Below are positions 19,651-47,903 of a DNA stretch of 64,000 nt, one piece after another. Location: contig NC_009142.1 in the NCBI RefSeq assembly GCF_000062885.1, positions 186,001-250,000 on the forward strand, in the 5' to 3' direction. A program made the translations under genes and the position numbers. The DNA comes from Saccharopolyspora erythraea NRRL 2338. GTDB lineage: Bacteria > Actinomycetota > Actinomycetes > Mycobacteriales > Pseudonocardiaceae. The notes below the pieces were generated by a model. That model made no database searches. It was not told where the DNA came from and was given only the letters and a program-made list of their open reading frames with translations. Every line of letters starts with the position of its first letter. Position 1 is the stretch's first letter.

Positions 19651-22600
19651 GTGAACCACCCGATCGGTTCGGCCGTACTCGAACGTCCCGCCGAGCCCGG
19701 CCCGGAGCGACCGGAGCGCAGGAGCGCTCCGCTGTGGCTCGCTCACTTCGTCGCGCTCACGGTCGGTTTGCTGGGGCTGGTCTGCGCTTTGTCTTTGCCG
19801 TTCGCGCCGGTGTGGTCCGACCGCACCGAGGTGCGGTGGCCGTCCGTGCACGCCGGTACGCCGGACGCGCCCGGCACCGGCACGACGCTCGACGACGGGC
19901 TGCGGTCGACCACGGCGCTGTTCGCGCCCTACCGCCCAGCCGAGTTCCACGCGGCGGTGCCGTGCGCGACGCTGCGGAGCGCGGACGGAACGGTGTTCTC
20001 GACGCTGCCGCCGGGCAGCGACCGCGAAGGCATGGTCCTCGCGGTCCGCGAAGGTGAGCCGCGGCTCCTGCTCGGGCAGCGGGAGGTGGAGCTCCCACCG
20101 CTCGCCGGCGACTGCACGCTCAACGTGAACGCCGACTCCGCGCAGTCCGTGGTCACCGTCGGCGCCTCCACCACGAGGCTGCCCGGTGTCGCGGCGCCGG
20201 AGATCTTCACCTTCAGCACCGATCTCGAACCTGTGCAGGCCGCCACGCTCTCGGTCACCGCGCGCACGTTCTCGTGGTTCGACACCACACCGACCGAGCA
20301 GAAGCGCGGCATGGTCACCGGCGCGCTGCTGATGGCCGCTCTCTCACTGCTGTTCCTGGTGGTGACCGCACCGCCGGCGATGTCGGCGCTGCGCGGGGCC
20401 GCGCGGCTCAGGACCTGGCTGCTGCTGCCGGTCGACGCCGCCGTGCTCGGGATCCTCGCTTGGTGGCTGGTCATCGGCCCGATCAGCGACGACGACGGCT
20501 TCGCGATGATGACCGTCCGCAACTTCGAACCGACCGGCGACATCGGCAACTACTACCGCTGGTTCAACGCGTCGGAGACACCGTTCACGCTGGTGCAGCA
20601 CACGATGCGGTGGTTCGCCGACCACAGCCTCGCGCCGGTCTGGCTGCGGCTGCCGAGCGTGCTGGCGGGCGCGCTCACCTGGGTCGTGCTCAGCAGGGGC
20701 GTCGTCGGCCCGCTGTGCGGACCGGGCTCGCGGCTGCGGGCGCACCTGCTCGCCGCGGTGTTCTTCCTGGCCTGTTGGCTCCCATTCGACCTCGGCGTGC
20801 GTCCCGAGGCGTTCGTCGCGCTGGGCACCACCGTGCTGGTCGCGGCACTGCTGAAGGCCGAGCACTCCGCGGGCCCCTTCGCTTGGCTCGGCCTGGCCGC
20901 GGTGGCCGCCGGCCTGACCGTCGCGGTGACACCGACCGGCGTCGCGGCGCTGGTCATCGTGCTCGTGTTCTCGCCGCGCATCGGGCGGTTGGTCGTGCGG
21001 CCGGGAGCGGTACCGGCGTGGCTGGCGATTCCCGCGCGCATCGCACTGGTCGGGTGCGCCGGATCGGTCGGCCTGGTCGCGATGTTCGCCGACTCGACGT
21101 GGAACGGCGTGGCGCAGGCGACCTGGCTGCACGACGAGTTCGGCCCGAGCCTGGGCTGGTACCAGGAGTTCAACCGCTACAACGTGCTGCTCGGCACGAC
21201 GCACTGGGGCGCGGCGGGCAAGCGGCTCGCGGTCTTCCTGGTGGTCACCGCGGCGCTGATCGCGGCGGGCTGCGTGCTGCGCGGGCTGCACCGCTCGACG
21301 CGGACGCCCGACGTCGCGCTGCTGCTCGGTGCGGTGGCCGCGATCTTCGCCGCGCTGTGGCTGACGCCGTCGAAGTGGACCCACCACTTCGGCTCGCTCG
21401 CCGGCCTCGGTCCTGCTCTGCTGGCGGTGACCGTCGTGATGCTGACGCGGGTGCGCGCGCCGCGGGAGGCGCGGGTGCTGGGCGTCTGCGGTGCGTCGGC
21501 GGCGTCGCTGGCGGCCGGATTGGCGTTCATGGGGCCCAATGCCTGGTACCTGTACTCCGACATCGCGATGCCGTGGTCGGACGCACCGGTCGATCCGCTG
21601 GACCAGCCGGTGCTGTGGCTCGCGGTGGGCGTGGCGTCCGGTCTGGTCGCCTACGCCGTCGTGCTCCTGTCGCGGCGCGGGGAGGCCGAGGCACGGCAGG
21701 CGTGGACCACCATGCCGTCGTCGGTGCTGGCGTTGGCGGCGCTGGCCTCGACGATCGTGCTGCTCGGCTCGTTCACGACCGCATACCGGGAGACGGGCGA
21801 CCGATTCTCGGTCGCGCGCACCAACTGGCACAGCGTCACCGCCACGAGCTGCGGTGTCGAGGACGAGGTCGAGACGCTCCCGCTGGCCGCGACCCTGCGG
21901 GCGTTGCCGGGCGCACCGGAACCGGACGGCTTCGCCCTTTCCGGGTCGCCGCCGCCCGAGCCCGACCTGGACCCGGAGTCCAGGAAGGACGGCGAAGTCC
22001 AGCCGCAGGAGGACGTGCCGCCGGTGTGGGACAGCCGCGAAGGCGGACCGCAGAACACGGGCACCCTGACCACCGGGTGGTTCGAGCTGCCCGCGCTGGA
22101 GCCCGACCAGGTGCTCGCGATCTGGGTCGCGGGCCGGCCGGAGCAGGGCAACTCGCTCGCCGTCGAGTTCGGCACGCCGATCGGCGACGTGGTCCGGGAG
22201 CTGCGCGACCCGCCACCGACCGAACTGCCCTTCGACGACCCCCGCCACGGCAGGCCGGTCGACTGGCGCGACTTCCGCCCGTGGCGCGTGATGACCGTCG
22301 AGGCCCCCGCCGGTGCCCGCACCGTGCGGCTGCACGCCGAGGACCGGACGACCGACGAGCAGGGCTGGCTGGCGGTCAGCGCCCCGGTGGTCCGCGACGT
22401 CGTGCCGTTGCCCGAGGTGCTCGACGCGCAGGGGCCGACGCTGGTCGACTGGCCGATGGGGCTGCTCTTCCCGTGCCGCATCGACTACCCGCGCGTCAGC
22501 GGCGGCACCGCCGACAGCCCCGGCGTGCTGGTCGCACCGCCCGCCGGTGAGGCGTCGATGGCGTACGCCCCCGACCTCGGCGGGGTCTTCGCCGGGGTGC

Positions 22601-22779
22601 CGATGCAGTCGCGCCGGATCGAACTGCCGAGCAGGCTGCGCGGCGCCCCCGGCGTCCGGTGGGGCCACGTCTACGCCGTCAGCTACGACACCGAGCGCGA
22701 CGTCTACGACCGGCACGTGACGAGGATCCGGATCGGCGGTGCGGACGGCGACGGCGCCTACCCCTTCGAAGAGCACTGA
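19651..22779 (+). CDS. Emb-type arabinosyltransferase, divergent paralogue 1
   Basis: A 1042-residue GT53 membrane protein. The layout matches Emb proteins: an N-terminal helix, a first periplasmic beta-domain (about 40-220), a long multi-helix GT-C core, and a C-terminal carbohydrate-binding region. The catalytic loop is SDDDGF with NYYRWFNASE downstream. LTPSKWTHHFGSLAG is the conserved Emb signature. Emb enzymes transfer arabinofuranose from decaprenyl-phospho-arabinose outside the membrane. It is less like mycobacterial Emb than the copy at 44408, so acceptor and linkage are uncertain. GTG 19651 has AGGGAGAG upstream. It heads a five-gene operon-like run to 28915. Confidence 0.85.
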   Translation: MNHPIGSAVLERPAEPGPERPERRSAPLWLAHFVALTVGLLGLVCALSLPFAPVWSDRTEVRWPSVHAGTPDAPGTGTTLDDGLRSTTALFAPYRPAEFHAAVPCATLRSADGTVFSTLPPGSDREGMVLAVREGEPRLLLGQREVELPPLAGDCTLNVNADSAQSVVTVGASTTRLPGVAAPEIFTFSTDLEPVQAATLSVTARTFSWFDTTPTEQKRGMVTGALLMAALSLLFLVVTAPPAMSALRGAARLRTWLLLPVDAAVLGILAWWLVIGPISDDDGFAMMTVRNFEPTGDIGNYYRWFNASETPFTLVQHTMRWFADHSLAPVWLRLPSVLAGALTWVVLSRGVVGPLCGPGSRLRAHLLAAVFFLACWLPFDLGVRPEAFVALGTTVLVAALLKAEHSAGPFAWLGLAAVAAGLTVAVTPTGVAALVIVLVFSPRIGRLVVRPGAVPAWLAIPARIALVGCAGSVGLVAMFADSTWNGVAQATWLHDEFGPSLGWYQEFNRYNVLLGTTHWGAAGKRLAVFLVVTAALIAAGCVLRGLHRSTRTPDVALLLGAVAAIFAALWLTPSKWTHHFGSLAGLGPALLAVTVVMLTRVRAPREARVLGVCGASAASLAAGLAFMGPNAWYLYSDIAMPWSDAPVDPLDQPVLWLAVGVASGLVAYAVVLLSRRGEAEARQAWTTMPSSVLALAALASTIVLLGSFTTAYRETGDRFSVARTNWHSVTATSCGVEDEVETLPLAATLRALPGAPEPDGFALSGSPPPEPDLDPESRKDGEVQPQEDVPPVWDSREGGPQNTGTLTTGWFELPALEPDQVLAIWVAGRPEQGNSLAVEFGTPIGDVVRELRDPPPTELPFDDPRHGRPVDWRDFRPWRVMTVEAPAGARTVRLHAEDRTTDEQGWLAVSAPVVRDVVPLPEVLDAQGPTLVDWPMGLLFPCRIDYPRVSGGTADSPGVLVAPPAGEASMAYAPDLGGVFAGVPMQSRRIELPSRLRGAPGVRWGHVYAVSYDTERDVYDRHVTRIRIGGADGDGAYPFEEH

Positions 22780-22994
22780 AGCGGTTGCGCGAGACCTTCG
22801 CCTGATCAGGTGCCGCGGCCGACCACTCTTTCGAGTGGACTGTCGCCGAGTGCCGGTGTGGCTGCTTTGCTTGGGGACACACGCTTTCATCGACCGTTCG
22901 CGGAATCGGTCGCGCGGCGGCCCTGCGGCTTTTCCTACATCCTGCGGTTCTGGAAACGCATCCGGAAGCGAGCACCTGATCGCGGGGAGCAGGC

Positions 22995-25900
22995 GTGGCG
23001 GATGGCAAGGGGCTGGACGTGCCGGAGCGGGGGGCGCCGGCCGAGGCGAGGGACCAGGTGGCGCCGGACGTCCGGCAACCGGCGCCGCGGGGCAGGTCCG
23101 CCCGCGTGCTGTCGGCGATCCTGGGGATCGTCGTCGGGCTCCTCGGCCTGCTCGCCGCCGTCGCGGTGCCGCTGGCGCCGGTGGTCGCCCGCGAGGTCAC
23201 CGTCACCTGGCCGGAAGCCGCCGCGCCCGCGAGGTCCACCCTGGCGTTCTTCGTGCCGTACCGGCCGGTGTCGGTGGACGTCGACGTGCCGTGCCGGGTG
23301 GTGCGGTCGGGCCAGGCGCTCGGCAGGCCCGCCACGCTGGTGAGCAGCCGCCTGCCCGGCCAGCCCACGCAGGGTTTCGCGGTGACCACGGCAAATGGCA
23401 CCGCGCTCGTCCTGGTCGGCGGGCGCGAGGCGCTGCGGGCGCCGATCGGCCGCGACTGCGCCATCTCGCTGCACTCCGACGCTTCCGGGAGCACCGCCCG
23501 GATCGGCGACCGCACCGCCACGCTCCCCGGGGTGCGGGTGGAGGACGTCGTCGCATTCGCCACCGACCTGCCGCCGGACGACGCGGCCGGGATGCGGGTG
23601 ACCGCACGGGCCGCCAACCCGTTCGAGAACGAGCCGACCGCGGAGAAGGCACTGCTGGTGTGGGGGCAGTTCCTGCTGGCAGGCCTCGCCTTCGTGCTGC
23701 TCGCCGTGCGCACGCGCGGCATCCGCGCGGTCGGTGTCGCGGCGACCACTGCGCCGCTGCCCGTCCAGCCCGGCCCGCCGGCCACCAACGGCAACCGCGC
23801 CCGCACCAACGCCGACGGCACGGCACTCCTCGCCGGCGACGGCACGGCACTCCTCGCCGGCGACGGCACGACACACCCCAACGGCGATGGTTTCGCACCC
23901 GAGGAGACCCGGCTCGGTGCCTGGCGCCGCGCGGTGTCGGGGCTGGTGGACCTGCTCGTGGTGGGCGTGGTCGGCGGCTGGTGGGTGTTCGGCCCGAACA
24001 CGCCCGACGACTCGTTCGCGAGCGTGACCATCACCAACGCGCTCAACACCGGCGACGTCGGCAACTACTACCGCTGGGAGAACGCCTCCGAGGCACCGTT
24101 CCTGCTCGCCCAGCAGCTGCTCGAACTGGTGGCCGGGTTGAGCGCGGCGCCGCTGGCCATGCGAGTGCCCAGCGTCATCGCCGCACTGCTGACCTGGCAG
24201 TTGCTCAGCCGGGGCGTCCTGAGCGCCGTCATCCCCGAGCACAGCCGCAAGCCGTCGGTTCGGGCGCTCGCCGCGCTGAGCTTCCTCGCCTGGTGGCTGC
24301 CCTTCGGCCTGGGCGTGCGGCCCGAGCCGTTCGTGGCGCTGGGAGTGGCGGCGACGCTCGCCTTCACGTTGCAGGGCGTGCGGCAGCAGCGGCTCGGCCT
24401 GCTCGGCGCCGCCGCGTTGTGGGCCGGGCTGTCGATGGCGGTGAACCCGATGGGCATCACCGCGATAGCGCCGTTCATCGTGCTCGCCGGTCGGCTGCGG
24501 CGGATGCTGCGGGTGCCGGACATGGTCCTGCTCGCAGGCATCACCTCCACCGGCCTGGTCGCGATGTTCGCCGACCAGTCGCTGGCCGGTGCTCGCGAGG
24601 CGACCCGGATGCACGGTTTCTACGGGCCGAACGTGCCGTGGTACCTGGAGATCCAGCGCTACCAGTTCCTGCTCGGCTTCGACCTCCAGGGCGACGTGGC
24701 CAGGCGCGCTCCGGTGCTGCTGACCGCGGTGGTGCTGCTGTTCACCGCGCTGCTGCTCAGCCGGGGCGCCCGCTGGCTGCCGGGTATGCGGATGGCCGGG
24801 GTCCCGGCGGGCTGCCTTGCGATCGGCCTCGCGCTGATGTGGCTGACGCCGTCGAAGTGGACCCACTACTTCGGTGCGCTCGCCGGTGTCGGTGCCGCGA
24901 CGCTGACCGCGGGGGTGGTGCTGGTCGTGGTCACCGCACGGCGGCTGGCCGGGGAGCGGACCGTGGTGCTGCTCGGCTTGCTCTGCACCGGCTTGGGTGT
25001 GGTCGCCGCGGCGTTGACGTTCGCGGGCAAGAACAACTGGTTCCTGCACTCGCACTACGGCGTTCCGTGGGGCGACGGGCCCGTGAGCCCGTTGAACAAC
25101 CCGCTGTTGTGGTCGCTGGGCGTCGGCGCGCTGCTGGTGGCAGCGGCGGTTTCCGGTGCCGTTCGCAGGGACCGGTTCGCCGCGCGTCGGACGCTGGTCC
25201 GGATGCCCGCCGTGCTCGGCGTGACGGCGGTCGGCACCACCGTGGCCGTCGTGCTGTACTCCTTCGCCGTCGCGCCGCTGCGCCAGAGCGGCAGCTACTC
25301 CGTCGGCGGGCAGAACCTGGCGAGCCTGACCGGGCAGAGCTGCGGGATCGTCGACCACGTCGTGGTCACGCCCGACGTGCCGGGCGGCAGGCTCCAGGTC
25401 TCCGGCGGCGACCCGGAGGCGGTGGGTTTCCGCCGCAACGGCGGATTCGCCTCGCCGCCGCCGGGCGGGACTGCGTGGAGCAGCTTCGGCGGCGGGCCGA
25501 TCTCCACCGGTCAGCTGACCACCGGCTGGTTCCCGCTGCCGGCTGAGCTGCCCGACTCCCGCGAGCTGGCCGTCGACGTCGCCGGCCGCACCGGGGACGG
25601 GAACCGCATCGCCCTGGAATTCGGCACGCGCAACGGCGTCATCGGCGAACGGGTGCTCGACGACACCGCGTTCGACGGCGACGAACGGCCCGCCTACCCC
25701 GCCGACCACGTCATCGAGGACAAGCCGCAGGACAACCCGTCCTGGCGGACCCTGCACTCCGAGGTGCCCGACGGCGCGACTCGGGTCCGCATCCGGGCCG
25801 TCGACGCCACCACGGACGGCGCAGGGTGGCTCGCGGTGACCGCGCCCCGCATCCGCGAGGTCGTCCCCATGGCCCAGTACCTGCGGGGCAGGTCGCCGAT

Positions 25901-26237
25901 CCTGGTGGACTGGTCGATGACCTGGTCCGCGCCGTGCCTGCAGGCGATGCCCGAGGTCGGTGGCGGACTCGCCGAACCGCCCGCGTACCTGGTCAACCCG
26001 CCGCACGGGCTCGGCTTCGGCGGCAGGGCCGCCTACGAGCGCGTGATCGGCGGCAGCTTCGCCGGTGTCCGGGAAGTCGGTCACCAGAAAGAGGTACCCA
26101 CGCGGCTACTCGGTGTCGAAGACGCTCCCCAATATGCCGAGTGGGGCCACCTGATCGAGGTCGATTACCCGCTATCGGGCAACGGCTTCGATGTTCAGAG
26201 CGTTCCGGTTTCACGGTGGGGTTGGCGAGGGGAGTGA
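22995..26237 (+). CDS. Emb-type arabinosyltransferase, divergent paralogue 2
   Basis: A 1080-residue GT53-like membrane protein of the same layout as its neighbour. The catalytic loop reads PDDSF: the two aspartates remain but the usual glycine is serine. NYYRWENASEAPF and LTPSKWTHYFGALAG follow. Between the first soluble domain and the core is a low-complexity insert with repeated GTALLAGD units. GTG 22995 has GGGGAG upstream. The C-terminal region ends next to the GT2 gene with a 2-nt gap. It may add a different sugar or linkage from the canonical Emb; that is inference. Confidence 0.82.
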   Translation: MADGKGLDVPERGAPAEARDQVAPDVRQPAPRGRSARVLSAILGIVVGLLGLLAAVAVPLAPVVAREVTVTWPEAAAPARSTLAFFVPYRPVSVDVDVPCRVVRSGQALGRPATLVSSRLPGQPTQGFAVTTANGTALVLVGGREALRAPIGRDCAISLHSDASGSTARIGDRTATLPGVRVEDVVAFATDLPPDDAAGMRVTARAANPFENEPTAEKALLVWGQFLLAGLAFVLLAVRTRGIRAVGVAATTAPLPVQPGPPATNGNRARTNADGTALLAGDGTALLAGDGTTHPNGDGFAPEETRLGAWRRAVSGLVDLLVVGVVGGWWVFGPNTPDDSFASVTITNALNTGDVGNYYRWENASEAPFLLAQQLLELVAGLSAAPLAMRVPSVIAALLTWQLLSRGVLSAVIPEHSRKPSVRALAALSFLAWWLPFGLGVRPEPFVALGVAATLAFTLQGVRQQRLGLLGAAALWAGLSMAVNPMGITAIAPFIVLAGRLRRMLRVPDMVLLAGITSTGLVAMFADQSLAGAREATRMHGFYGPNVPWYLEIQRYQFLLGFDLQGDVARRAPVLLTAVVLLFTALLLSRGARWLPGMRMAGVPAGCLAIGLALMWLTPSKWTHYFGALAGVGAATLTAGVVLVVVTARRLAGERTVVLLGLLCTGLGVVAAALTFAGKNNWFLHSHYGVPWGDGPVSPLNNPLLWSLGVGALLVAAAVSGAVRRDRFAARRTLVRMPAVLGVTAVGTTVAVVLYSFAVAPLRQSGSYSVGGQNLASLTGQSCGIVDHVVVTPDVPGGRLQVSGGDPEAVGFRRNGGFASPPPGGTAWSSFGGGPISTGQLTTGWFPLPAELPDSRELAVDVAGRTGDGNRIALEFGTRNGVIGERVLDDTAFDGDERPAYPADHVIEDKPQDNPSWRTLHSEVPDGATRVRIRAVDATTDGAGWLAVTAPRIREVVPMAQYLRGRSPILVDWSMTWSAPCLQAMPEVGGGLAEPPAYLVNPPHGLGFGGRAAYERVIGGSFAGVREVGHQKEVPTRLLGVEDAPQYAEWGHLIEVDYPLSGNGFDVQSVPVSRWGWRGE
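23814..23870 (+). repeat. 24-bp tandem repeat inside paralogue 2
   Basis: Two exact 24-bp copies (23814-23837, 23838-23861) plus a 9-bp third start encode the repeated GTALLAGD linker. Copy number is likely to vary between strains. Confidence 0.85.
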
Positions 26238-26239
26238 AC

Positions 26240-27247
26240 ATGGCCGAGGCGATCAGTCACTCTGTCCGAGTTCCGGTGCCGCAACAACAAGCCGCGGAAG
26301 AGGGCAGCCCTTCGCTGGTCTCGTACGTGCTGCCGGTCTACAACGAGGTGGAGGGCATCCGCAGGTTCCACGAAGAGCTGACCGCGGTGGTCGCGACGCG
26401 GCCGGAGTTCCGCTACGAGTTCGTCTACGTCAACGACGGTTCGGTCGACGGTTCGCTGGGAATCCTGCGCGACCTCGCGAAAAACGATTCACGGGTGCAC
26501 GTCGTCGACTTCGCCCGCAACTTCGGGCACCAGATCGCGATCACCGCGGGCCTGGACCACGCGGCGGGGGACGCGGTGATCATCATGGACACCGACCTGC
26601 AGGACCCGCCGCGGGTCAGCCTGGAGCTGATCGACGCGTGGCTGTCCGGTGCCGAGATCGTCTCGGCCCGCAGGCGCACCCGGCAGGACAGCAGGTTCAA
26701 GCGGTTCACCGCGCACGGCTACTACCGGCTGCTGCGCCACTGCGCCGAGGTCGACATCCCGGTCGACACCGGCGACTTCCGGCTGCTCGACCGGCGGGCC
26801 GCCGAGGAGCTGCGCGGTTTCCGGGAACGCAGCCGCTTCATCCGCGGCATGGTCGCGTCGATGGGGTTCCAGCAGGCCGAGGTGCTCTTCGACCGCGACG
26901 AGCGCGTCGCCGGCGAGACGAAGTACCCGATGCGCAAGATGCTGCGGCTGGCGGCCGACGGCGTGACCAGCTTTTCGACGGTACCGCTGCGGCTCATAAC
27001 CAGGATAGGGTTCGTCAGCCTCGCGCTGGCGCTGCTGGGCATCGTCTACGCGGTGGCGCTGCGGGTCTTCCTGCCCGAGGTGACCGTCTCCGGGTGGACG
27101 ATGCTGATGGTCGCGATGCTCTTCCTGGGCGGGGTGCAGATGCTGTCGCTGGGGGTGATCGGCTCCTACGTCGGCCGCATCTACAACGAGGTCCAGCAGC
27201 GGCCGCTCTACATCGTCCGGAAAGTGATCCGGTATGACCAGGACTGA
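26240..27247 (+). CDS. GT2 polyprenyl-phosphate glycosyltransferase (GtrB/DPM1-like)
   Basis: A 335-residue enzyme that would transfer a sugar from a nucleotide donor to polyprenyl phosphate on the inner membrane face. The GT-A domain has VLPVYNE (30-36), NDGSVDGS (65-72) and DTDLQDPP (117-124, metal-binding DXD). Two C-terminal transmembrane helices follow, the GtrB/Pgf-type layout. ATG 26240 has GGGGAG upstream. The gene overlaps the GtrA gene by 14 nt and follows paralogue 2 by 2 nt, so synthesis of the lipid-linked donor and its use by the adjacent Emb-type proteins look linked. Confidence 0.88.
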   Translation: MAEAISHSVRVPVPQQQAAEEGSPSLVSYVLPVYNEVEGIRRFHEELTAVVATRPEFRYEFVYVNDGSVDGSLGILRDLAKNDSRVHVVDFARNFGHQIAITAGLDHAAGDAVIIMDTDLQDPPRVSLELIDAWLSGAEIVSARRRTRQDSRFKRFTAHGYYRLLRHCAEVDIPVDTGDFRLLDRRAAEELRGFRERSRFIRGMVASMGFQQAEVLFDRDERVAGETKYPMRKMLRLAADGVTSFSTVPLRLITRIGFVSLALALLGIVYAVALRVFLPEVTVSGWTMLMVAMLFLGGVQMLSLGVIGSYVGRIYNEVQQRPLYIVRKVIRYDQD

Positions 27248-27647
27248 CCCCGGAGCACCGGTGGTCCGCGAACGGCTGGTCAGCCGCTCGCTGGTCCTCT
27301 ACGCCCTGATCGGGTGCAGCGGTGTCCTGCTCGACTACGGGCTCTTCCTGCTGCTGTTCAACCTGGCCGGCCTGCACGAGCAACTGGCCAACGCGATCAG
27401 CACCACGGCGGGGATCACCAACAACTTCGTGTTGAACGCACTGCTGAACTTCCGCAAGCGCGACCGGATCCTGGTCCGGTTCCTGCGCTTCTACGCCGTG
27501 GGCGTGGCCGGGATCGGGCTGACGTTCGTGCTGCTGCAGGTGTTCTCCGGCTTCCTCGGCGTCGACCCGAACCTGGTGAAGGCCGGATCGCTGCCGCTGG
27601 TGCTGGTCTTCCAGTACACGATCAACCGGAAGTGGAGCTTCGGATGA
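27234..27647 (+). CDS. GtrA-family membrane protein (putative lipid-linked sugar flippase)
   Basis: A 137-residue protein with four transmembrane helices. The GtrA hallmarks are ALIGCSGVLLDYGLF and the C-terminal FQYTINRKWSF. GtrA proteins are thought to flip polyprenyl-phospho-sugars or to assist their transfer. It overlaps the GT2 gene by 14 nt and the FAD oxidoreductase gene by ATGA, indicating tight translational coupling. A second GtrA protein in the window (43404) belongs to the Rv3789-like branch. Confidence 0.85.
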   Translation: MTRTDPGAPVVRERLVSRSLVLYALIGCSGVLLDYGLFLLLFNLAGLHEQLANAISTTAGITNNFVLNALLNFRKRDRILVRFLRFYAVGVAGIGLTFVLLQVFSGFLGVDPNLVKAGSLPLVLVFQYTINRKWSFG

Positions 27648-28915
27648 GGTTGGGCATCGTCGGTGCGGGTGCGACCGGGCTGACCGCGGCGTTCGACGCG
27701 GTGAAGGCCGGGCACGAGGTCACCGTGCTGGAGGCGTCGGACGAGCTGGGCGGGCTGGCCGCCTCGATCGAGGTCGGCGGCAACTCGCTGGAGCGCTTCT
27801 ACCACCACAGCTTCAAGACCGACCGCGCGGTGATCGAGCTGGTGCACGAGCTGGGGCTCGGCTCGAAGCTGCGCTTCCACAAGCCCAGCATCGGCATCCA
27901 CCTCGACGGCCGGATGCACGACTTCGGCACGCCGCTGGAGATGCTGCGGTTCCCGGAGTTCTCGATGCTCGACCGGGCGCGCTTCGCCGCGTCGTCGGCG
28001 GCGCTGAAGCTGGTCCGCGACGGCGAGCGGTTCAACTCCGTGCGCGCGCTGGACTGGATGCGCCGCTGGGCGGGGCCGAGGGTGACCGAGACGATCTGGG
28101 AGCCGCTGCTGACCGGCAAGTTCGGTTCGCGCGCCGGGGAGATCTCGATGGCCTGGCTGTGGGCCCGCATCCACTACCGCACCTTCGAGCTCGGTTACGT
28201 GCACGGCGGTTTCGACCAGGTGTACCGGGCGCTGCTGGAGGCGGTGACCGACCGGGGCGGCAAGGTGGAGTTCGGCAAGCCGGTCTCGTCGATCCGCCAG
28301 CCCGGCACCGAGGTCGAGGTGCGAGCCGGCGACGACGGCAGCAGCTACACCTTCGACCACCTCATCGTCACGGTGCCGCAGCCGGTCTTCGCCAAGGCTG
28401 CGGGCACCGCCTCCGACGACGTGCTCTGGCGCAACCAGTACCTCGGCGCGACCTGCTTCATCCTCGAATGCGACCGCAGCCTGATCCCGTACTACTGGCT
28501 GAACATCAACGACCCGGCCTTCCCGTTCCTGGCGGTCGTCGAGCACACCAACATGGTCGACCCGGCCGAGTACGGCGGCAGGCACGTGGTGTACGTCGGC
28601 AACTACGTGCCGCGCGACGACTGGCGGTTCACGACCGAGCCGGAGGAGCTGCTCGAGGCCTACGTTCCCTGGCTGCGCAAGCTGAACCCCGGGTTCGACC
28701 TGTCGTGGGTGCGGGACTGGCACTTCTCGAAGGCGGGTTTCGCCCAGCCGGTCGTGACCCCGCAGTACCGGGCCCTGATCCCGCCGCACCGGACGTCGAT
28801 GCGCAACGTCACGCTGGCGACCATGTCGCAGATCTACCCGCAGGACCGCGGTCAGAGCTACGCGATCCAGATGGCCCACGACGTCGTGCGCAGCCTCGGA
28901 CTCGACCGCCCGTAG
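27644..28915 (+). CDS. FAD-dependent amine-oxidase/UGM-like oxidoreductase
   Basis: A 423-residue flavoprotein. The N-terminal dinucleotide-binding motif GAGATG (residues 7-12) and EASDELGGLAAS match the NAD(P)/FAD-dependent amine oxidase and protoporphyrinogen-oxidase-like group, which is structurally related to UDP-galactopyranose mutase. WEPLLTGKFG and the C-terminal MSQIYPQDRGQSYAIQMA close the fold. The substrate is unknown. Because it overlaps gtrA by ATGA and follows a polyprenyl-sugar synthase, I infer that it oxidises or isomerises a sugar at the nucleotide or lipid-linked stage. It is convergent with GPP34 with a 9-nt gap. Confidence 0.75.
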   Translation: MRLGIVGAGATGLTAAFDAVKAGHEVTVLEASDELGGLAASIEVGGNSLERFYHHSFKTDRAVIELVHELGLGSKLRFHKPSIGIHLDGRMHDFGTPLEMLRFPEFSMLDRARFAASSAALKLVRDGERFNSVRALDWMRRWAGPRVTETIWEPLLTGKFGSRAGEISMAWLWARIHYRTFELGYVHGGFDQVYRALLEAVTDRGGKVEFGKPVSSIRQPGTEVEVRAGDDGSSYTFDHLIVTVPQPVFAKAAGTASDDVLWRNQYLGATCFILECDRSLIPYYWLNINDPAFPFLAVVEHTNMVDPAEYGGRHVVYVGNYVPRDDWRFTTEPEELLEAYVPWLRKLNPGFDLSWVRDWHFSKAGFAQPVVTPQYRALIPPHRTSMRNVTLATMSQIYPQDRGQSYAIQMAHDVVRSLGLDRP

Positions 28916-29821: not shown

Positions 29822-31024
29822 ATGGTCAGCGAAGCTCCGCCGCGCCATCCGCCGGCGCTGCCCGAACGGCTCCGCCGGGTGGCCGACGGCAGGCTGCGGC
29901 TGGTCCTGGTGGTGTCCGCGCCGGCGCTCGCCGGCTGCCTGGGGACGCTGGTCTCGGTGTACTCGTTCTGGGGCGACTTCGAGGTCTACCGGTGGGGCGT
30001 GCACACCTGGCTCGCGGGCGGCGACTTCATCAACACCAGGGCGCCGGTCCGCAACCCCGACCCGCTGCCGTGGGTCTACCCGCCGTTCGCGCTGCTGCCG
30101 CTGGCGCCCTTCGCCCTGGTGCCCTCGGCGGTCGGCCTCGGCATGCTCGACGCCGTCGACGTGCTGGCCCTCGGCGCGACGATCTACCTGGTCACCCGCC
30201 ACGCGTGGCCCGCGGCGGGGCCGCGCGGAGCGCTGGCGGTGGCGGCGACCGGACTTCCGCTGTCGTTCGTCCTAGAGCCCGTGCACGCCTGCTTCGGCCA
30301 GGGGCAGGTCAACATCGCGCTGATGGGCCTGGTCGCGCTCGACTGCCTGGCCCGCGAGCCGCGCTGGCCGCGCGGTCTGCTGGTCGGCATCGCCGCCGCC
30401 ATCAAGCTCACCCCGGCCGCGTTCCTGCTGTTATTCCTGCTGCGCAAGGACTTCCGCGCCGCTCTCAGCGCCGTGGCAACCGCGGCGCTGTGCACCGCGA
30501 TCGGCTTCGCCGTCGACTTCACGGCGTCGGTCGACTACTGGTTCCGCCGCGGACCGGCCGCCGACGTCGCCGGACACGCGCTGAACAGCAACCAGTCGGT
30601 GCTGGGTGCGCTTGCGCGCTTCGACCTGCCGCCTTCCGCCCAGAACGCCGCATGGGCCGTGCTGTGCCTCGGAATCCTCGTGCTGACCGCCCGCATCCTG
30701 CCCCGGGTGAGCGCCCCGGCCGCGTTCGTCACCGTCGGGCTGTTCGCCGTGCTCGTCTCACCGACGTCCTGGTCGAACCACTGGGTGTGGGTCGTGCCCG
30801 GCCTGTTGCTGCTGGGCGGCAACGCGATCCGGCGCCGTCACGGCCTTCTGCCGGTGGCCGTGACGGCGCTGATCGCCGTCACGGCCCCGTGGCACTTCCT
30901 GCCCGGCGTCGGGGGAGCCGAGCTGTCCTGGACGCCGGTGCAGCACGTGGTCGGCAACACCTACGTGCTGACCGCCGTCGTCGCGCTGGTGTGGACCGCG
31001 CTGGTCACCAGGGCTGGTCGATGA
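29822..31024 (+). CDS. GT87 (DUF2029) mannosyltransferase-like membrane protein, second copy
   Basis: A 400-residue polytopic GT-C protein. Hallmarks are the early acidic loop DFEVYRWGVHTW, WPRGLLVGIAAAIKLTP, LLFLLRKDFRAA and LVSPTSWSNHWVW. These are near-identical in placement to the GT87 protein at 4310. The donor is expected to be polyprenyl-phospho-mannose and the reaction extracytoplasmic. The last 20 nt overlap the 3' end of the convergent LGFP gene. The ATG fits a leaderless start, with TAGGCT 6 nt upstream. Confidence 0.82.
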   Translation: MVSEAPPRHPPALPERLRRVADGRLRLVLVVSAPALAGCLGTLVSVYSFWGDFEVYRWGVHTWLAGGDFINTRAPVRNPDPLPWVYPPFALLPLAPFALVPSAVGLGMLDAVDVLALGATIYLVTRHAWPAAGPRGALAVAATGLPLSFVLEPVHACFGQGQVNIALMGLVALDCLAREPRWPRGLLVGIAAAIKLTPAAFLLLFLLRKDFRAALSAVATAALCTAIGFAVDFTASVDYWFRRGPAADVAGHALNSNQSVLGALARFDLPPSAQNAAWAVLCLGILVLTARILPRVSAPAAFVTVGLFAVLVSPTSWSNHWVWVVPGLLLLGGNAIRRRHGLLPVAVTALIAVTAPWHFLPGVGGAELSWTPVQHVVGNTYVLTAVVALVWTALVTRAGR

Positions 31025-31964
31025 CTGCCCCGGTGCTCTGGTCGAGCGCGATGTAGCCGCCCTCGAAGTCGACCTGCGTGCGGCCGTCGCCGACCTCGTA
31101 CGGGTTCGACGTCGGGTACCCCAGGTAGGACAGCTCGCGCCGAAGCTCGTGCCAGCGCTGCATGATCGCCCCGGTCACGAAGTGCGCGCCGCTGCCCGGG
31201 TGCCAGTACGCCGCGGCGGGCGGGTTGTCCTTGCCGGTGAACTCGTTCTGCCTGCCCAGGCCGTCCAGCGTCGTCAGCTCGTCGCTGCTGGGGTAGCCGA
31301 AGCCGTTCTCCCAGCCGTTGGCCGCCCACAGGTCGCGGATCGCGCCCTGGACCGAGTGCGCACCGGTCGCCTTCGTCCAGTACACCGACGCGCCCGCGCC
31401 GTCCCCGCCGACGAAGTGGTTGTAGACCCCGACGCCGTCAGGAGTTCCGGCCGTCGAGGAGGTCGGATACCCCAGGCGGCCGGCTTCCCAGCCCTTGTCC
31501 GACCAGAACTTGCGGATCGTCCCGGCCACCGTCTGCGCCCCGGTCGACGGGCTCCAGTACACCGAGGCGTCGCGGGTGAAGTGGTTGTAGCGGCCGACGC
31601 CGTCGGGGGTCGCGACCTCGTCGGTGGTCGGCACACCCAGCACGCGGTGCGCACCGGAGCGGACGAACCGCTGCGCGATGTCGCCGTGCAGCTCGTGCAC
31701 CCCGGTGGCCGGGGAGTGGTACAGCCAGCCGTTCTGGAAGTGCTGGTAGGAGATGTCGCCTTCGACGTACTCGGTGTCGACCGGGTTGCCGAGCAGCTCC
31801 CGCAGCCCGGCTTCGGTCCAGTACCGGAGCTCGATCGGCGTGAACGCCTGCGGGTCGGCCTGCACCGGCGTGGCCTCGCCGGACGCGGCGGTGGCGGGCA
31901 AGGAGGATGCGAGTGAGAGCGCGGCGCACGCTGCGATCGCCGCGGCAAGCCGTTTCCTGTTCAA
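31005..31964 (-). CDS. Secreted LGFP-repeat protein
   Basis: A 319-residue exported protein. The signal peptide covers residues 1-27 (LNRKRLAAAIAACAALS, cut near ATAA). The mature part is a string of about five LGFP repeats of roughly 50 residues, each with a W, a G-x-LG-x-P core and a Y-W-S/T-P/K-x-T/S-G-A-H segment (for example LGVPTTDEV and LGYPTSSTA). In corynebacteria LGFP repeats are linked to anchoring in the arabinogalactan wall, which fits this locus. The start is TTG 31964 with GAAAGGGG upstream. It lies downstream of Emb paralogue 3 on the same strand but is separated from it by hairpins. Confidence 0.85.
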   Translation of the reverse strand: MNRKRLAAAIAACAALSLASSLPATAASGEATPVQADPQAFTPIELRYWTEAGLRELLGNPVDTEYVEGDISYQHFQNGWLYHSPATGVHELHGDIAQRFVRSGAHRVLGVPTTDEVATPDGVGRYNHFTRDASVYWSPSTGAQTVAGTIRKFWSDKGWEAGRLGYPTSSTAGTPDGVGVYNHFVGGDGAGASVYWTKATGAHSVQGAIRDLWAANGWENGFGYPSSDELTTLDGLGRQNEFTGKDNPPAAAYWHPGSGAHFVTGAIMQRWHELRRELSYLGYPTSNPYEVGDGRTQVDFEGGYIALDQSTGAVIDQPW

Positions 31965-37693: not shown

Positions 37694-37694
37694 G

Positions 37695-40542: not shown

Positions 40543-41903
40543 AGGGACAACCTTCGGGACAGATCGGAGTTGAAGATTCCTTCGGGATCGACGGCGGCGC
40601 GGACCTGGCGCCACTCGTCGAGACGTGGGTACATCTGCCGGACCATCTCCGGCGTGGTGCGCGAGTCCTTCGCGAAGTACAGACGGCCGCCCGCACCCAG
40701 CACCATCTCGTCCAGTTCCTCGCAGAAGCGGTGCAACCCGTCCTTGATCGGGAAGTCGACGGTGATCGTCCAACCCGGGATGGGGAACGACAGCGGCGCG
40801 CGGCTGCTGTCGCCCATCCGCTTCAGGACGTTGAGGAACGACACGTGCCCGGACTCCGCGATCCGCTGCACGAGCCTGCGCAGGGCCTCGTCCTCCTCGA
40901 ACGGCACGATGAACTGGTACTGCAGGAAACCCTTCGAGCCGTAGGCGCGGTTCCACTCGCCGAACATGTCCAGCGGGTGGTAGAAGGCGGTCAGGTTCTG
41001 CACCTGCCCGCGCCCCTGCTTCGGCGTCTTGCGGTACCAGATCTCGCTGAGCGTGCTGAACGTCAGCTTGTTGGCCAGCCCGTTGGGGAACACGTCCGGG
41101 AAGGTCAGCAGCTGCGGCGCGTCGAACTTCAGCGGATCCGCGCGCAGCTTCGGCGGCAGCTCGTCGAGCTTGGCCAGCGAACCGCGGGAGAACGCCGAAC
41201 GCCCCAGCTTCGGGCCGGTGGAGATCGCGTCGAACCACGCCATCGAGTAGTCGTAGTTCATGTCCGAGCCGTTGGAGAACAGCTCCAGCGTCTCGTCGAG
41301 GTCCTTGGTGCGGTCGGCGTCGACGATGAAGTACGCGCTCTCGGTGCGCTTCATCTTCACCTTGGCGCGCAACACGATCCCGGTCAGCCCGACACCACCG
41401 ACGGTCGCCCAGAACAGCTCCGAGCCCTCGCCGTCCGGCGTGAGCGTCCGGATCTGGCCATCGGCGGTGAGCAGGTCCATCGACACGACGTGGTTGCCGA
41501 AGCTGCCGTGCGAGTGGTGGTTCTTGCCGTGGATGTCGCAGCCGATGGCGCCGCCGATGGTCACCTGCCGGGTGCCCGGCAGCACCGGGACCCACAGGCC
41601 GTGCGGCAGCGCGGCCCGCATCAGCTGGTCCAGGCTCACGCCCGCGTCGACGTCGACGACCGCCTTGTCGCGGTCGATGTCGTGGATGCGGTTCAGCGCG
41701 GTCATGTCGATGACGGTGCCGCCGGCGTTCTGCGACACGTCCCCGTAGCTGCGGCCCAGGCCGCGGGCGATGACGCCGCGTTCGTCGGCCTCGCGCACCG
41801 CACGCGCGATGACCTCGACGTCGGGGGTGCTGACCACCCGCGCCGTCGTCGGGGAGGTGCGGGCCCACCCCATCAGTTTCCGGGTTTCCACGGCAGCGGT
41901 CAC
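40539..41903 (-). CDS. dprE1: Decaprenylphosphoryl-ribose 2-oxidase DprE1, downstream copy
   Basis: A 454-residue FAD enzyme (VAO-fold) that oxidises the 2-hydroxyl of decaprenylphosphoryl-ribose. FAD-binding segments RGLGRSYGD and [10 protein letters not shown] are intact; YFAKDSRTT carries the conserved lysine near the active site. The residue at the position of M. tuberculosis Cys387 is Thr381 ([10 protein letters not shown]), so the covalent benzothiazinone attachment site is absent. GTG 41903 overlaps the stop of the upstream copy (GTGA). Which copy is the main enzyme is not decidable from sequence; this one is coupled to dprE2. Confidence 0.93.
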
Positions 41904-43264
41904 AGGCTCAGCCTCCGGGACAGGTCGGAATGGAACACGCCTTCGGGGTCGACCGAGGCGCGGATCTTGCGCCACTCGCCGATCCGCGGGTACATCCGCT
42001 CGATCATCTCCGGCGTGGTGCGCGACTCCTTGGCCAGGTAGAGCCGGCCGCCCGCGTCGAGCACCATCTCGTCCAGCTCGCCGCACAGGCGGTCCAGGCC
42101 CGGGGTGATCGGGATGTCCACGGTCAGCGTCCAGCCCTCGCGCGGGAACGACATCGGCGCGTCGTTGCCCTTGCCGAAGGTCTTGAGCACGTTGAGGAAG
42201 GACACGTGGCCCGACGCGCTGATCTTGTCGATCGAGCGGCGGAACATCGCCTCCTGCCCGAACGGCACCATGAACTGGTACTGCAGGAAGCCGTTGGGCC
42301 CGTACACCCGGTTCCACTCGCCGACCAGGTCCAGCGGGTGGAAGAACTGCGTGATGTTCTGGACCATGCCGAACTTCGTCGGCGCCTTGCGGTACCAGAC
42401 CTCGTTGAACGCGGTGATGGTGTACTTGTTGACCAGACCGTTGGGGAAGATCGGCGGGGCGGTCATCAGCTGCGGCGCGTTGAACTTCAGCGGGTCCTTG
42501 CGAAGCTTCTTCGGCAGGTCCTCGATCCTGGCCGAGTTGCCGCGGGTCAGCAGCGCGCGGCCCAGCTTGTCGCCGCGGGCCAGCGAGTCGAACCAGGCGA
42601 CCGAGTAGATGTAGTTGTCGTCGGAGCCGTCGGTGAAGTGCTCGATCAGCTCGTCGAGATTCTTGGTCTGGACGTTGTCGACCAGGAAGTACGCCGTCTC
42701 CACCCGCTTGAGGCGGATGGTGGCGTTGAGGATGATGCCGGTCAGGCCCATCCCGCCGACGGTCGCCCAGAACAGCTCGGAGTTCTCACCGTCCGGGGTC
42801 AGGCTCCTGACCTGGCCGTCGGCGGTGAGCAGGTCCATCGCGAGAACGTGGCTGCCGAAGGAGCCCTGCGAGTGGTGGTTCTTGCCGTGGATGTCGGAGC
42901 CGACGGCGCCGCCGACGGTGACCTGGCGGGTGCCGGGCAGCACCGGGATCCACAGGCCGTAGGGCAGCAGGCGCCGCATCAGCGTGTCGAGCGAGACACC
43001 CGCGTCGACGACCACGATGGCGTTGTCGACGTCGACCTGGTGCACGCGGTCGAGCGCGGTCATGTCGATGACCGTGCCGCCGGCGTTCTGCGAGGGGTCG
43101 CCGTAGCTGCGACCGAGGCCGCGCGCGATGACGCCGCGCTCACCGGCCTCCCGGACCGCCTTCGCGATCACTTCCACATCGGGGGTGCTGATCACACGAG
43201 CCGTGGTCGGCGCGGTGCGCCCCCAGCCGGTCAGCGTCTGAAGCTCGTCCTTTACCGATCCCAC
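41900..43264 (-). CDS. DprE1 paralogue, upstream copy of a tandem pair
   Basis: A 454-residue FAD enzyme of the same family and length as the following gene, with RGLGRSYGD (48-56), [10 protein letters not shown] (flavin-linked histidine region near H126) and YLAKESRTT. The position of mycobacterial Cys387 is Thr381 ([10 protein letters not shown]). It differs from its neighbour throughout, so the duplication is old rather than recent. The start GTG 43264 is leaderless (TAGACT 7 nt upstream) and the gene heads the dprE1-dprE1-dprE2 operon. It could serve a different lipid-linked pentose or act as the housekeeping enzyme. Confidence 0.92.
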
Positions 43265-44407: not shown

Positions 44408-47400
44408 TCACGGGTGCTGGCCGGGCTGCGGCTCCTCCGCGCTGTCCCCGAAGCCCTGCACGTCGTTGCGGTCGTCGGAGTTGGGCACGTCGCCGGGCAG
44501 CTGCACCGTCTTGCTCAGCGGCCCCGGCGTCCAGGTGCCCCAGTGCGTCTCGGGGTGCACCTCCATCGCCGCCTCCGCCGGGAGCGCGTCCGGCACGAAC
44601 GGGTCGACCCGGTACAGCGAGCCCCAGTCGCGGTGGATGTCGTTCTTCACGTACGTCGGCAGCTCACGCATGCTCGTCGTGATGTTCAGCCACCCGAGGG
44701 GGCCGCCGCTGTCCGGCGACGACCAGCCCTGACCGATGTCGCGCACCTCGGCGCCCGCCGACACCCGGAACTTGGGCATCTCGGCGATGCCGTTGCGGAT
44801 GCCCGGGATCTGCAGGCACGGGTGCACCAGCGCCGCGGTCCACTCGACGAAGGTCGGCGCGTCGCCGACGAAGTCGGTCATGTTGCGCAGCTGCGGCGCG
44901 CGCGGTGCGCTGACCGCGACCCAGCCGTTCGGCCCGAGCGACTGGTCGGTGGCCACGACGCGCATCTTCGTCGCGCCCTCGGCGTCGCCGCGCACGGTGA
45001 CCCGGTGGTCCCGCCATTCCGGGCCGGGGCTGACCGGGACGTAGTGGCGCTGCATGACCTGGAAGCCCTGGTCGGTGTCGCGGCCGAACTCGATGTAGGC
45101 CGAGTTGGCGCCGCCGTTGGCGCCGGCCAGCATCACGACCACCGGCACCTCGCCGTTGGCGGCGCGCTCGGGCAGGTCGTACCACTGGGTGCGCAGCTCA
45201 CCGATCCCGGTGCCGGTCTGGTCGTAGCTGCCCCACACCGGAGCGTTGTCGCCGCCGAAGCGGTGCGGCGGGGACCAGTCGGGCTCATCGGGGTCGTTGC
45301 CGTCGCCCTGCGGCAGCCCGGAGCGGTTGAAGCCCTCCAGCTTCGCCTTGAGGTACGCCTCGGGCGACTCCTTGTCCTTGAGGCGCTTGGCGGGCACCGG
45401 CACGTCCGGGCTGACCGGGGGAGCGGGTGTGGTCGGCTGGTTCGCCGAGACCTTCAGCATGCCCGCCTGCGGGTTGGCCTCCACGTACACGTAGTCGGAC
45501 AGGCCGCAGCTGGACCCGGTGATCTGCTTGACGTTGTCCGCGCCGAGGCTGTAGCTGCCCCACTGCTTCTGGATGACCTTGGCGAAGTTGGCCAGCTCGA
45601 AAACCACCAGCAGCGCGCAGATGATCGACAGCGGGGCGGTGCCCAGCCGCAGCGCGCGGCTCTGGCCCTCCATGCCGCGCGCCTTCTCGTCGACGACCTC
45701 GGGGTTGTGCGGGTCGAGCCGCAGGTGTTCGACGAACGCGACGATCATCGTGATGGCGGCGATGAGCAGGAACACCGTGCTCGCGCTGTAGCCGAGGATC
45801 AGCGGCGGCTTGTCGAACCACGGCACGCCCCACCCCGACACGTACCACCAGGCGTTGGGGCCGGTGGTGCCGAAGGCCAGCACCAGCATCAGCCCCGCGA
45901 AGAACGCCGCGCGGTTGCGCTTCGAACGCAGCACGGTGCTGCTGGTGGCCAGCGCGGTCAGCGCCGCGAGCGCGCCGCCGACGGCGGCGAACAGGCCGAA
46001 GTGGTGCGTCCACTTGGTGGGGGTCAGCGCCAGGACCACGAACGACAGCGCGGCCACGGCCAGCAGCCTGCGGCTCGGGCCGAGCGCGGCGCCGCGGATC
46101 TTGCCCCTGCGCAGCAGCACGACCGCGCAGGTCGTCAGGCACAGCATCACCAGCAGCACCGGGATGCGGCGGGTCATCGAGCCGTCCGGCGTCTGGCTGA
46201 ACAGCAGGTTGTAGCGGCTCAGCTCCTGGTACCAGTCCTGGCTGGGGCCCAGGTCGGTGCGCAGGTCGGTGGCGTCCAGGACCGACTGGAGCGTCTGGTC
46301 GGAGAAGACCACGGTCAGGATCACGAAGCCGGACGCCGCGATCGGCGCCAGCACCGGCACCCAGCCGAACTCTCGCGCACGCTTGCGCACGATCTGCAGC
46401 AGCGGCTTGAGCGCGGCGATGTAGGGCAGCACCGCCACCAGGCCGTGCGGGTTGGCGCCCACCGCCAGCGCGGCCACCACCAGGCCCAGCGCGGCGGGCA
46501 TCAGCCGCCCGGTCGCCACCGCGCGCTCCACCGCGCACAGGGCGAGCAGCGAGAACAGCACGACGACCGGCTCGGGCCGCAGGCCGTTGTTGTAGGGCAG
46601 CCAGAACGCCAGGAACACCGCCGCCGCGGCCCAGCCCGCCGCGTTGCTGCGCCGGACCTGGCGGCCCAGGCGGGGCAGCACCTCGCGGCTGATGAGCAGC
46701 CAGCTCACGATGCCCATCAGCAGGGCGGGCAGCCGCACCCACGGCGTCGCCGTGGATATCTGCACCCACAACGAGTACAGCTCGTAGAACCAGCCGAAGG
46801 GCGCCTCGGGTACGGCGAACCATCGGAAGTAGTTGCTGACGTAGCCCGCCGTCTCGCGCGCCCGCGCGATCGTCAGGATGTACCCGTCGTCGGAGGTCAT
46901 GGCGCCCATGACCCACCACACGCAGAGCGCGCCGATCACCGCGACGTCGCGGAACGTCGGCTTCCACCAGCCCGGCGGCACCAGGCGCGGCGGTCGCCGG
47001 CCCGCGCGCACGTCCAGCCTGCGCAGCGCGACGACGGAGCCGATGAACGCCAGCACGACCAGCGCCATCGCCGAGAGCTTCAGCACCGTCGCGCTGCTCT
47101 CGTAGCGGTTGTCGACGCGGGCCTCGAACGACAGGTCCCGCACGTTGTCGACCGACTCGTCGAGGTCGGAGTAGACGCCGGTGAGCTGCGGGCGCTGGTC
47201 GCCGCGGGTCGAGGCCAGCTGCTGGTCGCCGACGTTGGCGGTGGTGCCGCCCGCGTCGGAGTGCACCGAGATCGTGCAGTCGCCCGCGGGGAGCGGGACG
47301 GTGCTCAGCGACTGGCCCTTGGACAGCAGCGTCAACATGTTGTTGTCGACCTGCAGGACCAGGCCGGTCAGGTTGCCGTAGTCGGAGTTCGGCGGGTTGG

Positions 47401-47743
47401 TGCTGAGGAGGGTCCCCGGCCGCCCGTCGGTGCGGGCGTCGAGTCCGCGCGCGGTCTCGCAGGAGACGTTCGCGTTGAGCCAGACCGGGGAGAAGGACAC
47501 CAGCGGAGCCGACACCGGCTTGGTGCCCTGCGCCGTCGGCCACTTGAGGGTGGTGACCTCGTGGTTGACGGGGAGGAACGGCAGTGCCAGCGCCAGGACG
47601 GTGCCGAGCAGTCCGGTGATCGCCGCGAACAGCTTCAGCCGCGTGGCTGGAGCGTCGTGACCGTTACTCGCTGCTCGTGCCGAGGAGCCCGACGGAGTTC
47701 CGTCGTCGTCCTTCCGGCTGTCGTCGTCCTGGCCAGTAAACAC
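44408..47743 (-). CDS. Canonical Emb arabinosyltransferase (EmbA/B/C type)
   Basis: A 1111-residue GT53 membrane enzyme that builds the arabinan of arabinogalactan from decaprenyl-phospho-arabinose on the outer membrane face. The catalytic loop TSDDGYILTIAR and NYFRWFAVPEAPFGW closely follow mycobacterial EmbB. LTPTKWTHHFGLFAA is the Emb signature. The C-terminal carbohydrate-binding domain includes a typical GNLTG-type beta region. Length fits the Emb family (about 1,095). GTG 47743 is leaderless (TATTCT 6 nt upstream). Which of EmbA, EmbB or EmbC it equals is not decidable. It is the only Emb here with the full canonical motif set. Confidence 0.93.
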   Translation of the reverse strand: MFTGQDDDSRKDDDGTPSGSSARAASNGHDAPATRLKLFAAITGLLGTVLALALPFLPVNHEVTTLKWPTAQGTKPVSAPLVSFSPVWLNANVSCETARGLDARTDGRPGTLLSTNPPNSDYGNLTGLVLQVDNNMLTLLSKGQSLSTVPLPAGDCTISVHSDAGGTTANVGDQQLASTRGDQRPQLTGVYSDLDESVDNVRDLSFEARVDNRYESSATVLKLSAMALVVLAFIGSVVALRRLDVRAGRRPPRLVPPGWWKPTFRDVAVIGALCVWWVMGAMTSDDGYILTIARARETAGYVSNYFRWFAVPEAPFGWFYELYSLWVQISTATPWVRLPALLMGIVSWLLISREVLPRLGRQVRRSNAAGWAAAAVFLAFWLPYNNGLRPEPVVVLFSLLALCAVERAVATGRLMPAALGLVVAALAVGANPHGLVAVLPYIAALKPLLQIVRKRAREFGWVPVLAPIAASGFVILTVVFSDQTLQSVLDATDLRTDLGPSQDWYQELSRYNLLFSQTPDGSMTRRIPVLLVMLCLTTCAVVLLRRGKIRGAALGPSRRLLAVAALSFVVLALTPTKWTHHFGLFAAVGGALAALTALATSSTVLRSKRNRAAFFAGLMLVLAFGTTGPNAWWYVSGWGVPWFDKPPLILGYSASTVFLLIAAITMIVAFVEHLRLDPHNPEVVDEKARGMEGQSRALRLGTAPLSIICALLVVFELANFAKVIQKQWGSYSLGADNVKQITGSSCGLSDYVYVEANPQAGMLKVSANQPTTPAPPVSPDVPVPAKRLKDKESPEAYLKAKLEGFNRSGLPQGDGNDPDEPDWSPPHRFGGDNAPVWGSYDQTGTGIGELRTQWYDLPERAANGEVPVVVMLAGANGGANSAYIEFGRDTDQGFQVMQRHYVPVSPGPEWRDHRVTVRGDAEGATKMRVVATDQSLGPNGWVAVSAPRAPQLRNMTDFVGDAPTFVEWTAALVHPCLQIPGIRNGIAEMPKFRVSAGAEVRDIGQGWSSPDSGGPLGWLNITTSMRELPTYVKNDIHRDWGSLYRVDPFVPDALPAEAAMEVHPETHWGTWTPGPLSKTVQLPGDVPNSDDRNDVQGFGDSAEEPQPGQHP

Positions 47744-47749
47744 GAATGG

Positions 47750-47755
47750 AGAATA
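47750..47755 (-). promoter_or_regulatory. -10 element TATTCT, leaderless promoter of emb
   Basis: TATTCT (minus strand, 47755-47750) ends 6 nt before GTG 47743. Confidence 0.55.
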
Positions 47756-47903
47756 GTAGCCGCTGGTACGAGCCCGGCCGCGGCGTTCGGTGCATGTGTG
47801 TCTGGACACGAACGAGTGGTCACCGGTAACGCTGTGACCTGCTGACTCAGCTCCTTCTCAGGTCACTCTCAGTGTTTCGTGACCACCCGGTGACCGGTCC
47901 GCC

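Follow-up and report, generated by a model that had tools for sequence, protein, structure and literature searches.

The window, by which we mean the whole 64,000-nucleotide stretch analysed here, comprises bases 186001-250000 of the 8,212,805-bp single-contig genome of Saccharopolyspora erythraea NRRL 2338. It contains a run of five genes on the same strand (positions are those of the window):

19651..22779, plus strand: emb1, divergent Emb-family GT-C glycosyltransferase; GTG start, 1042 aa; PF04602, PF14896, PF17689
22995..26237, plus strand: emb2, second divergent Emb; GTG start, 1080 aa; PF04602, PF14896, PF17689
26240..27247, plus strand: GT2, predicted GtrB/DPM-type polyprenyl-phosphate glycosyltransferase; ATG start, 335 aa; PF00535
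27234..27647, plus strand: GtrA, GtrA-family membrane protein; ATG start, 137 aa; PF04138, E 3.5e-24
27644..28915, plus strand: FAD protein; ATG start, 423 aa; PF01593 (Amino_oxidase), NF005560

The ATG of GT2, whose open reading frame spans 25826..27247, lies 2 nt past the emb2 stop; GT2 and GtrA overlap by 14 nt, and GtrA and the FAD gene by 4 nt (ATGA). A preliminary description of this DNA had reported exactly this layout, with emb1, emb2, a GtrB-like GT2, GtrA and the FAD protein on one strand, and was right on every point. emb1 and emb2 are separated by 215 nt. Scanned with consensus motifs, the region gave no promoter-like site and one terminator-like site (22913-22927), fewer than the 3.1 expected there by chance.

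The run sits in an arabinogalactan locus with glf, ubiA, two dprE1 genes, a canonical emb and glfT1; a galactan export ATPase gene, like glfT1, also lies within the window. The surrounding features are:

5899-7185: UDP-galactopyranose mutase (glf); family model over cut-off
7189-9150: glycosyltransferase in the place of glfT2, identity presumed
9199-9783: PAP2
9674-10900: decaprenyl-phosphate phosphoribosyltransferase (UbiA-type)
32187-35186, minus strand: emb3, third divergent emb
39784-40542: DprE2-like gene
40542-41888: dprE1, second copy; NF053785 over cut-off
41903..43264, minus strand: dprE1 of the DPA pathway; NF053785 over cut-off
43404-43853: GtrA, a locus copy apart from that of the GT2-GtrA-FAD triplet
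44408..47809, minus strand: canonical Emb arabinosyltransferase; PF04602, 670 bits

In the genome as a whole there are eight Emb-domain matches, the three low-scoring ones being emb1, emb2 and emb3, together with seven GtrA matches and one match over cut-off to the family of the FAD protein (NF005560). The best solved-structure match of GT2 is Synechocystis sll0501 (E 1.2e-79), followed by ArnC, and its sequence suggests a GtrB-like polyprenyl-phosphate glycosyltransferase. GtrA is a putative flippase or partner of GT2.

A scan of named genomes gave 525 candidate loci, and conservation was assessed in the 80 best of them. At all 55 loci where the FAD protein has at least 56% identity (range 56-84%), GT2, GtrA and the FAD gene occur in that order. 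The layout of the last two is more than chance since their 4-nt overlap recurs in 54 of these 55 triplet loci. GT2, GtrA and the FAD gene are, in short, a conserved unit. In a sample of 120 relatives a close FAD orthologue was present in six, counting the source genome, and a distant one (29-32% identity) in nine. A GT2 directly adjoins the distant homologue in 9/9 cases by profile search, in weak matches (E 5e-6 to 1e-9) of which two were confirmed in Pfam. In one relative, L211, an Emb gene is grouped with GtrA and GT2 and the FAD gene is missing.

Another sample comprised 296 actinobacterial genomes. Across a phylum-wide sample the FAD protein was matched at 1e-60 in only seven of 396 genomes, the source genome again included. 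In the six others a GT2 directly adjoins the FAD gene three times (L059, L060, L062), lies around 0.7 kb from it in L064 and around 3.4 kb off on the opposite strand in L061; a profile search of the neighbourhood in L063 found no GT2. At 25 more distant FAD loci, mostly of Chloroflexota, this type of GT2 is adjacent only in L128, with another some 3.7 kb away in L120, and this scarcity counts against explaining the five genes as one system. One cluster of neighbours recurs at five of those 25 loci, the three members checked being LPG_synthase_TM, and L137 has a PMT-like protein as neighbour; both observations are suggestive only.

The gene standing beside the triplet varies. Among the 55 triplet loci the partner is a divergent Emb in 23, a protein of about 570 residues in 30 and neither in two, while no locus has both. 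The Emb-partnered loci are all 20 from Saccharopolyspora/Halosaccharopolyspora, two from Geodermatophilaceae and one from S. jeddahensis. The two loci with neither partner are L085, where the available sequence ends just past the triplet, and L119, on a contig labelled Saccharibacteria. The protein of about 570 residues is encoded downstream of the triplet on the opposite strand in 30/35 non-Saccharopolyspora loci (30 of the 32 without Emb), and is absent from all 20 Saccharopolyspora-type loci and from the three Emb loci outside them. It has no Pfam match. Its structural model (pLDDT 86.7) best matches ArnT, EmbC, AglB and EmbB with E-values from 5e-7 to 8e-4, and AftA at 1e-3. It is predicted to be a GT-C enzyme on these E-values and on topology, the TM-scores being about 0.4-0.5 (below 0.52) and the rmsd 7-15 Å.

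At the Saccharopolyspora/Halosaccharopolyspora loci the gene directly upstream of the triplet is the emb1 orthologue (20/20), and in at least four of them (L070, L074, L078, L080) the flank immediately upstream of emb1 contains dprE1. A full-length emb2 is found in 13 of the 20. The other seven (L066, L067, L068, L070, L071, L072 and L086) have emb1 only, some keeping short emb2-like stretches, and these absences also count against a system of all five genes. Of the 96 Geodermatophilus-family genomes, four have the FAD gene and 26 an Emb, and in each of the four FAD-bearing genomes Emb adjoins the triplet. The Emb neighbourhoods covered were those of 19 of the 22 Emb-only genomes (all but G642, G562 and G565) and that of the second Emb of G595, the second Embs of G633 and G607 being left out; none of them holds GT2 or the FAD gene. 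Many of the Emb-only neighbourhoods hold a GlfT1, dprE1 or phosphoribosyltransferase gene.

The functional linkage of the five genes proposed in the preliminary description is thus borne out by Emb standing beside the triplet in 20/20 Saccharopolyspora/Halosaccharopolyspora loci and in 4/4 FAD-bearing genomes of the Geodermatophilus family. What that description named as refuting it, triplets widely found without emb genes, holds in part: in 32/55 loci the triplet stands without Emb, and in 23/55 Emb adjoins it. Since 30 of these 32 have the other predicted GT-C enzyme, the module is general rather than emb-specific. The linkage to Emb is real but, because the partner changes between loci, not unique to emb; the triplet is a portable module, probably for a lipid-linked sugar, whose GT-C enzyme can be exchanged.

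We considered whether an Emb might be hidden upstream of the triplet in Streptomyces-type loci, and discarded the idea: the upstream genes belong to other families, and PF04602 is absent from 32 of the 35 non-Saccharopolyspora triplet genomes. Near the triplet of several Streptomyces loci lies a gene of NeuB type or polysialyltransferase type (a single example of either kind was checked in Pfam), and another polymer may therefore be the target there.

The phylogeny of the Emb proteins gives a less strict picture. In a 70-protein tree, built with a quick method, emb1 and emb2 form one group with the three Embs from outside Saccharopolyspora/Halosaccharopolyspora, apart from the canonical Emb and emb3, with support of 100. 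The group is kept (100/99) in a second tree of 43 rows to which nine triplet-unlinked Embs contributed, and all nine fall inside it. These nine rows come from eight Pseudonocardiaceae genomes, 120 relatives having been covered. One of them, at L205, is emb1-like (52% identity) and has none of the cassette genes around it; in L206, L207 and L209 the unlinked divergent emb genes lie beside dprE1/dprE2. Same-clade Embs without the triplet weaken the idea of strict coupling of the whole clade and count against the five-gene explanation; either the branch arose before it was joined to the triplet, or that association was lost several times.

The donor pocket was compared with that of EmbB, using M. 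smegmatis EmbB numbering. According to PMC7341804 and PMC7305291, D285 and D286 are the catalytic residues, arabinose is contacted by E313 and Q431 and the phosphate by R495, and N304 and Y320 play a supporting part. Emb1 and Emb2 have all three Emb Pfam domains. The cassette Embs have the catalytic DD motif, and D285, D286, N304, E313, R389 and E391 are invariant in the 38 that were aligned. Position 495, Arg in DPA-bound EmbB, is His in 38/38, and the position of Y320 is Gln in 38/38, with Tyr in 22 of 29 canonical rows. The His is not special to the cassette, since it is shared by 6/6 emb3 rows, 8/9 unlinked Embs and some canonical rows: 25 of the 29 canonical rows have Arg or Lys at position 495, three have His and one has Ala, so that Arg is not a strict feature of the family. 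The sequences indicate a donor pocket that is altered in the divergent Emb branch, in a way that does not track the triplet.

These results bear on the main rival reading, that Emb1 and Emb2 are ordinary DPA arabinosyltransferases and the triplet, a mere neighbour, makes some other lipid-linked sugar for a different transferase. The retained DD, E313, R389 and E391, the DPA genes 13 kb away and the related divergent Embs found beside dprE1/dprE2 without a triplet all favour it. DPA is, moreover, probably available, with DprE1 over cut-off in 12 of the 13 genomes searched; these include all three single-Emb genomes, which undermines the notion that those organisms lack DPA. Yet in these three distant genomes (L098, L104 and L110, from Geodermatophilus, Blastococcus and S. 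jeddahensis) no Emb match was found other than the one adjoining the triplet, and Emb-less loci have another predicted GT-C enzyme in that place; a chance neighbour would not explain this. On balance we regard this reading as unlikely, if deserving of serious attention.

The FAD protein scores 484.9 bits with the NF005560 model, whose cut-off is 252 and which NCBIfam names only 'hypothetical protein'. HpnE, the next NCBIfam match, scores 80.6 bits and falls far short of its cut-off of 283. The Pfam and NCBIfam scans used the open reading frame from 27314, which is N-terminally extended relative to the start at 27644. The structural model is of high confidence (pLDDT 94.5), its nearest folds being protoporphyrinogen oxidase and phytoene desaturase, followed by monoamine oxidases. 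Polar residues invariant over 46 relatives include H54, H55, R113, K159, R179, Y185, Y317, Y321, D401 and R402, and such a set would be in keeping with a substrate that bears phosphate or sugar. Identification of the protein as DprE1, and of the cassette as the DPA operon, was considered and rejected: the dprE1 model NF053785 is matched elsewhere in the window, twice, while the FAD protein matches Amino_oxidase and NF005560 and showed neither an NF053785 match nor a VAO-type FAD domain.

Phytoene desaturase and HpnE act on isoprenoids. Their appearance among the top structural neighbours and as second NCBIfam match, respectively, would fit an enzyme that desaturates or saturates the polyprenyl tail, rather than acting on the sugar, to make a special carrier. 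However, protoporphyrinogen and monoamine oxidases score equally well, and a changed carrier would need no strict pairing with one GT2, making this improbable. The preliminary description had likened the FAD protein to UDP-galactopyranose mutase, hinting at a furanose product. On that view the flavoenzyme would be a mutase converting a lipid-linked pyranose to a furanose. In its favour, Emb enzymes use a furanose donor, and the mutase encoded in the window resembles the FAD protein in its FAD-binding part and in an H-x-F stretch close by. But hhalign aligns only 96 N-terminal FAD-binding columns of the two (probability 83), there is no match to the Pfam mutase family GLF, TIGR00031 is absent among the 25 NCBIfam matches listed of 43, and no mutase occurs among the 50 structural matches listed of 1161 (E up to 0.001). 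The hint is therefore a weak one, and mutase activity very improbable.

Beyond the observed gene content and order, their conservation and the exchange of GT-C partners, the best explanation, to which we assign a probability of roughly 55%, is that the five genes act together as a single glycosylation system of the cell envelope, with a portable module of three genes as its basis. GT2 would load a sugar from a nucleotide sugar onto polyprenyl phosphate at the inner face of the membrane. The flavoenzyme would then oxidise or otherwise alter the lipid-linked sugar, a role like that of DprE1 in the DPA pathway, though from another flavoprotein family. GtrA would help the product across the membrane. 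Outside, the GT-C enzyme encoded next to the triplet (in this case the divergent Emb1, alone or together with Emb2) would transfer the sugar, most likely to the arabinogalactan that the surrounding locus produces. The enzyme fed by the same module in Streptomyces and its kin would be a different GT-C, and the wall polymer would presumably differ as well. Because the genes are linked and lie in an arabinogalactan locus, the earlier suggestion that a further sugar is placed on the wall arabinan is plausible. It is a tentative proposal, somewhat short of an even chance, that the Emb branch transfers a flavoenzyme-modified sugar from its own module, not arabinose, and that a change of GT-C partner moves the module from one wall polymer to another.

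Searches of an open-access library found no literature on this gene combination, which is not proof of absence, but three known systems resemble parts of it. Three-component GtrA-GtrB-GtrC systems consist of a GtrB-like GT2, GtrA and a neighbouring GT-C enzyme, and all three features are present here; the differences are that the GT-C enzyme is an Emb and that there is a fourth, flavin-dependent protein whose gene overlaps gtrA in 54/55 loci. We know of no such protein in published Gtr systems. The DPA pathway with EmbA/B/C, whose canonical genes lie in the same window, likewise provides a lipid-linked sugar through a flavoenzyme, with GtrA nearby and Emb enzymes as users. Here, by contrast, the carrier sugar would be loaded by a GT2 rather than a UbiA-type phosphoribosyltransferase, the flavoprotein family differs, and the Embs form a separate clade with His in place of Arg495. 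In the galactosamine decoration by PpgS/Rv3632/Rv3779, too, a GT2 and a partner membrane protein load a sugar for arabinogalactan; that system is not known to have a flavoenzyme, nor is its transferase known to be an Emb. PMC9671496 describes the corynebacterial PpgS-type counterpart, again a GT2 with a partner membrane protein, in arabinogalactan decoration.

The present results offer a lead to an uncharacterised flavoenzyme that probably acts beside polyprenyl-phosphate sugars. Emb enzymes are the targets of ethambutol and, as far as we are aware, are known only as DPA-dependent arabinosyltransferases. The single-Emb genomes of Geodermatophilus, Blastococcus and S. jeddahensis, along with the exchange of GT-C enzyme in Streptomyces, make the idea of a different donor testable in organisms that are harmless. 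If true, an Emb branch with its own supply of lipid-linked sugar would widen what the Emb fold can transfer.

Beyond the cassette, in which divergent emb1 and emb2 accompany the triplet of GT2 (GtrB-like), GtrA and FAD protein genes, the window holds the following features.

29822-31024 (+): GT87 protein, between cassette and emb3
31005-32147 (-): LGFP-repeat protein, likewise between cassette and emb3
32187-35186 (-): emb3, a third emb, more divergent still and in a separate clade
36494-38450 (-): two-component pair, its response regulator above the CseB cut-off
40542-43264 (-): two tandem dprE1 genes, both above the NF053785 cut-off

The kinase of the two-component pair is CseC-like, with a score under the CseC cut-off. 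The emb3 gene is kept in relatives of the same family. In four of the triplet loci of other genomes that lack full-length emb2 (L066, L068, L070 and L071), short emb2-like stretches remain directly upstream of GT2, which suggests loss of emb2 there.

Two further arrangements were seen elsewhere.

L211:9071-13534: Emb, GtrA and GT2 grouped without the FAD gene, in a Pseudonocardiaceae genome
L095:11325-13043: membrane protein of ~570 aa without a Pfam match, with homologues in 30 of the 55 triplet loci, these having no Emb beside the triplet

The ~570-aa family, for which a GT-C fold is predicted, adjoins the triplet in Streptomyces and Actinacidiphila. A triplet (FAD identity 56%) also lies on a contig labelled Candidatus Saccharibacteria (L119), possibly a mis-binned actinobacterial contig.

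The tandem dprE1 copies share 69% identity, and paired adjacent strong DprE1 matches also occur in several other Saccharopolyspora genomes. DprE1 matches above the cut-off are likewise found in Streptomyces and Geodermatophilaceae genomes (L168-L170, L171 and L172), most of them adjoining a short-chain-dehydrogenase-like (DprE2-like) gene. Two Streptomycetaceae genomes among these yielded no Emb domain; in these two, another transferase may be the user of the lipid-linked arabinose donor DPA.
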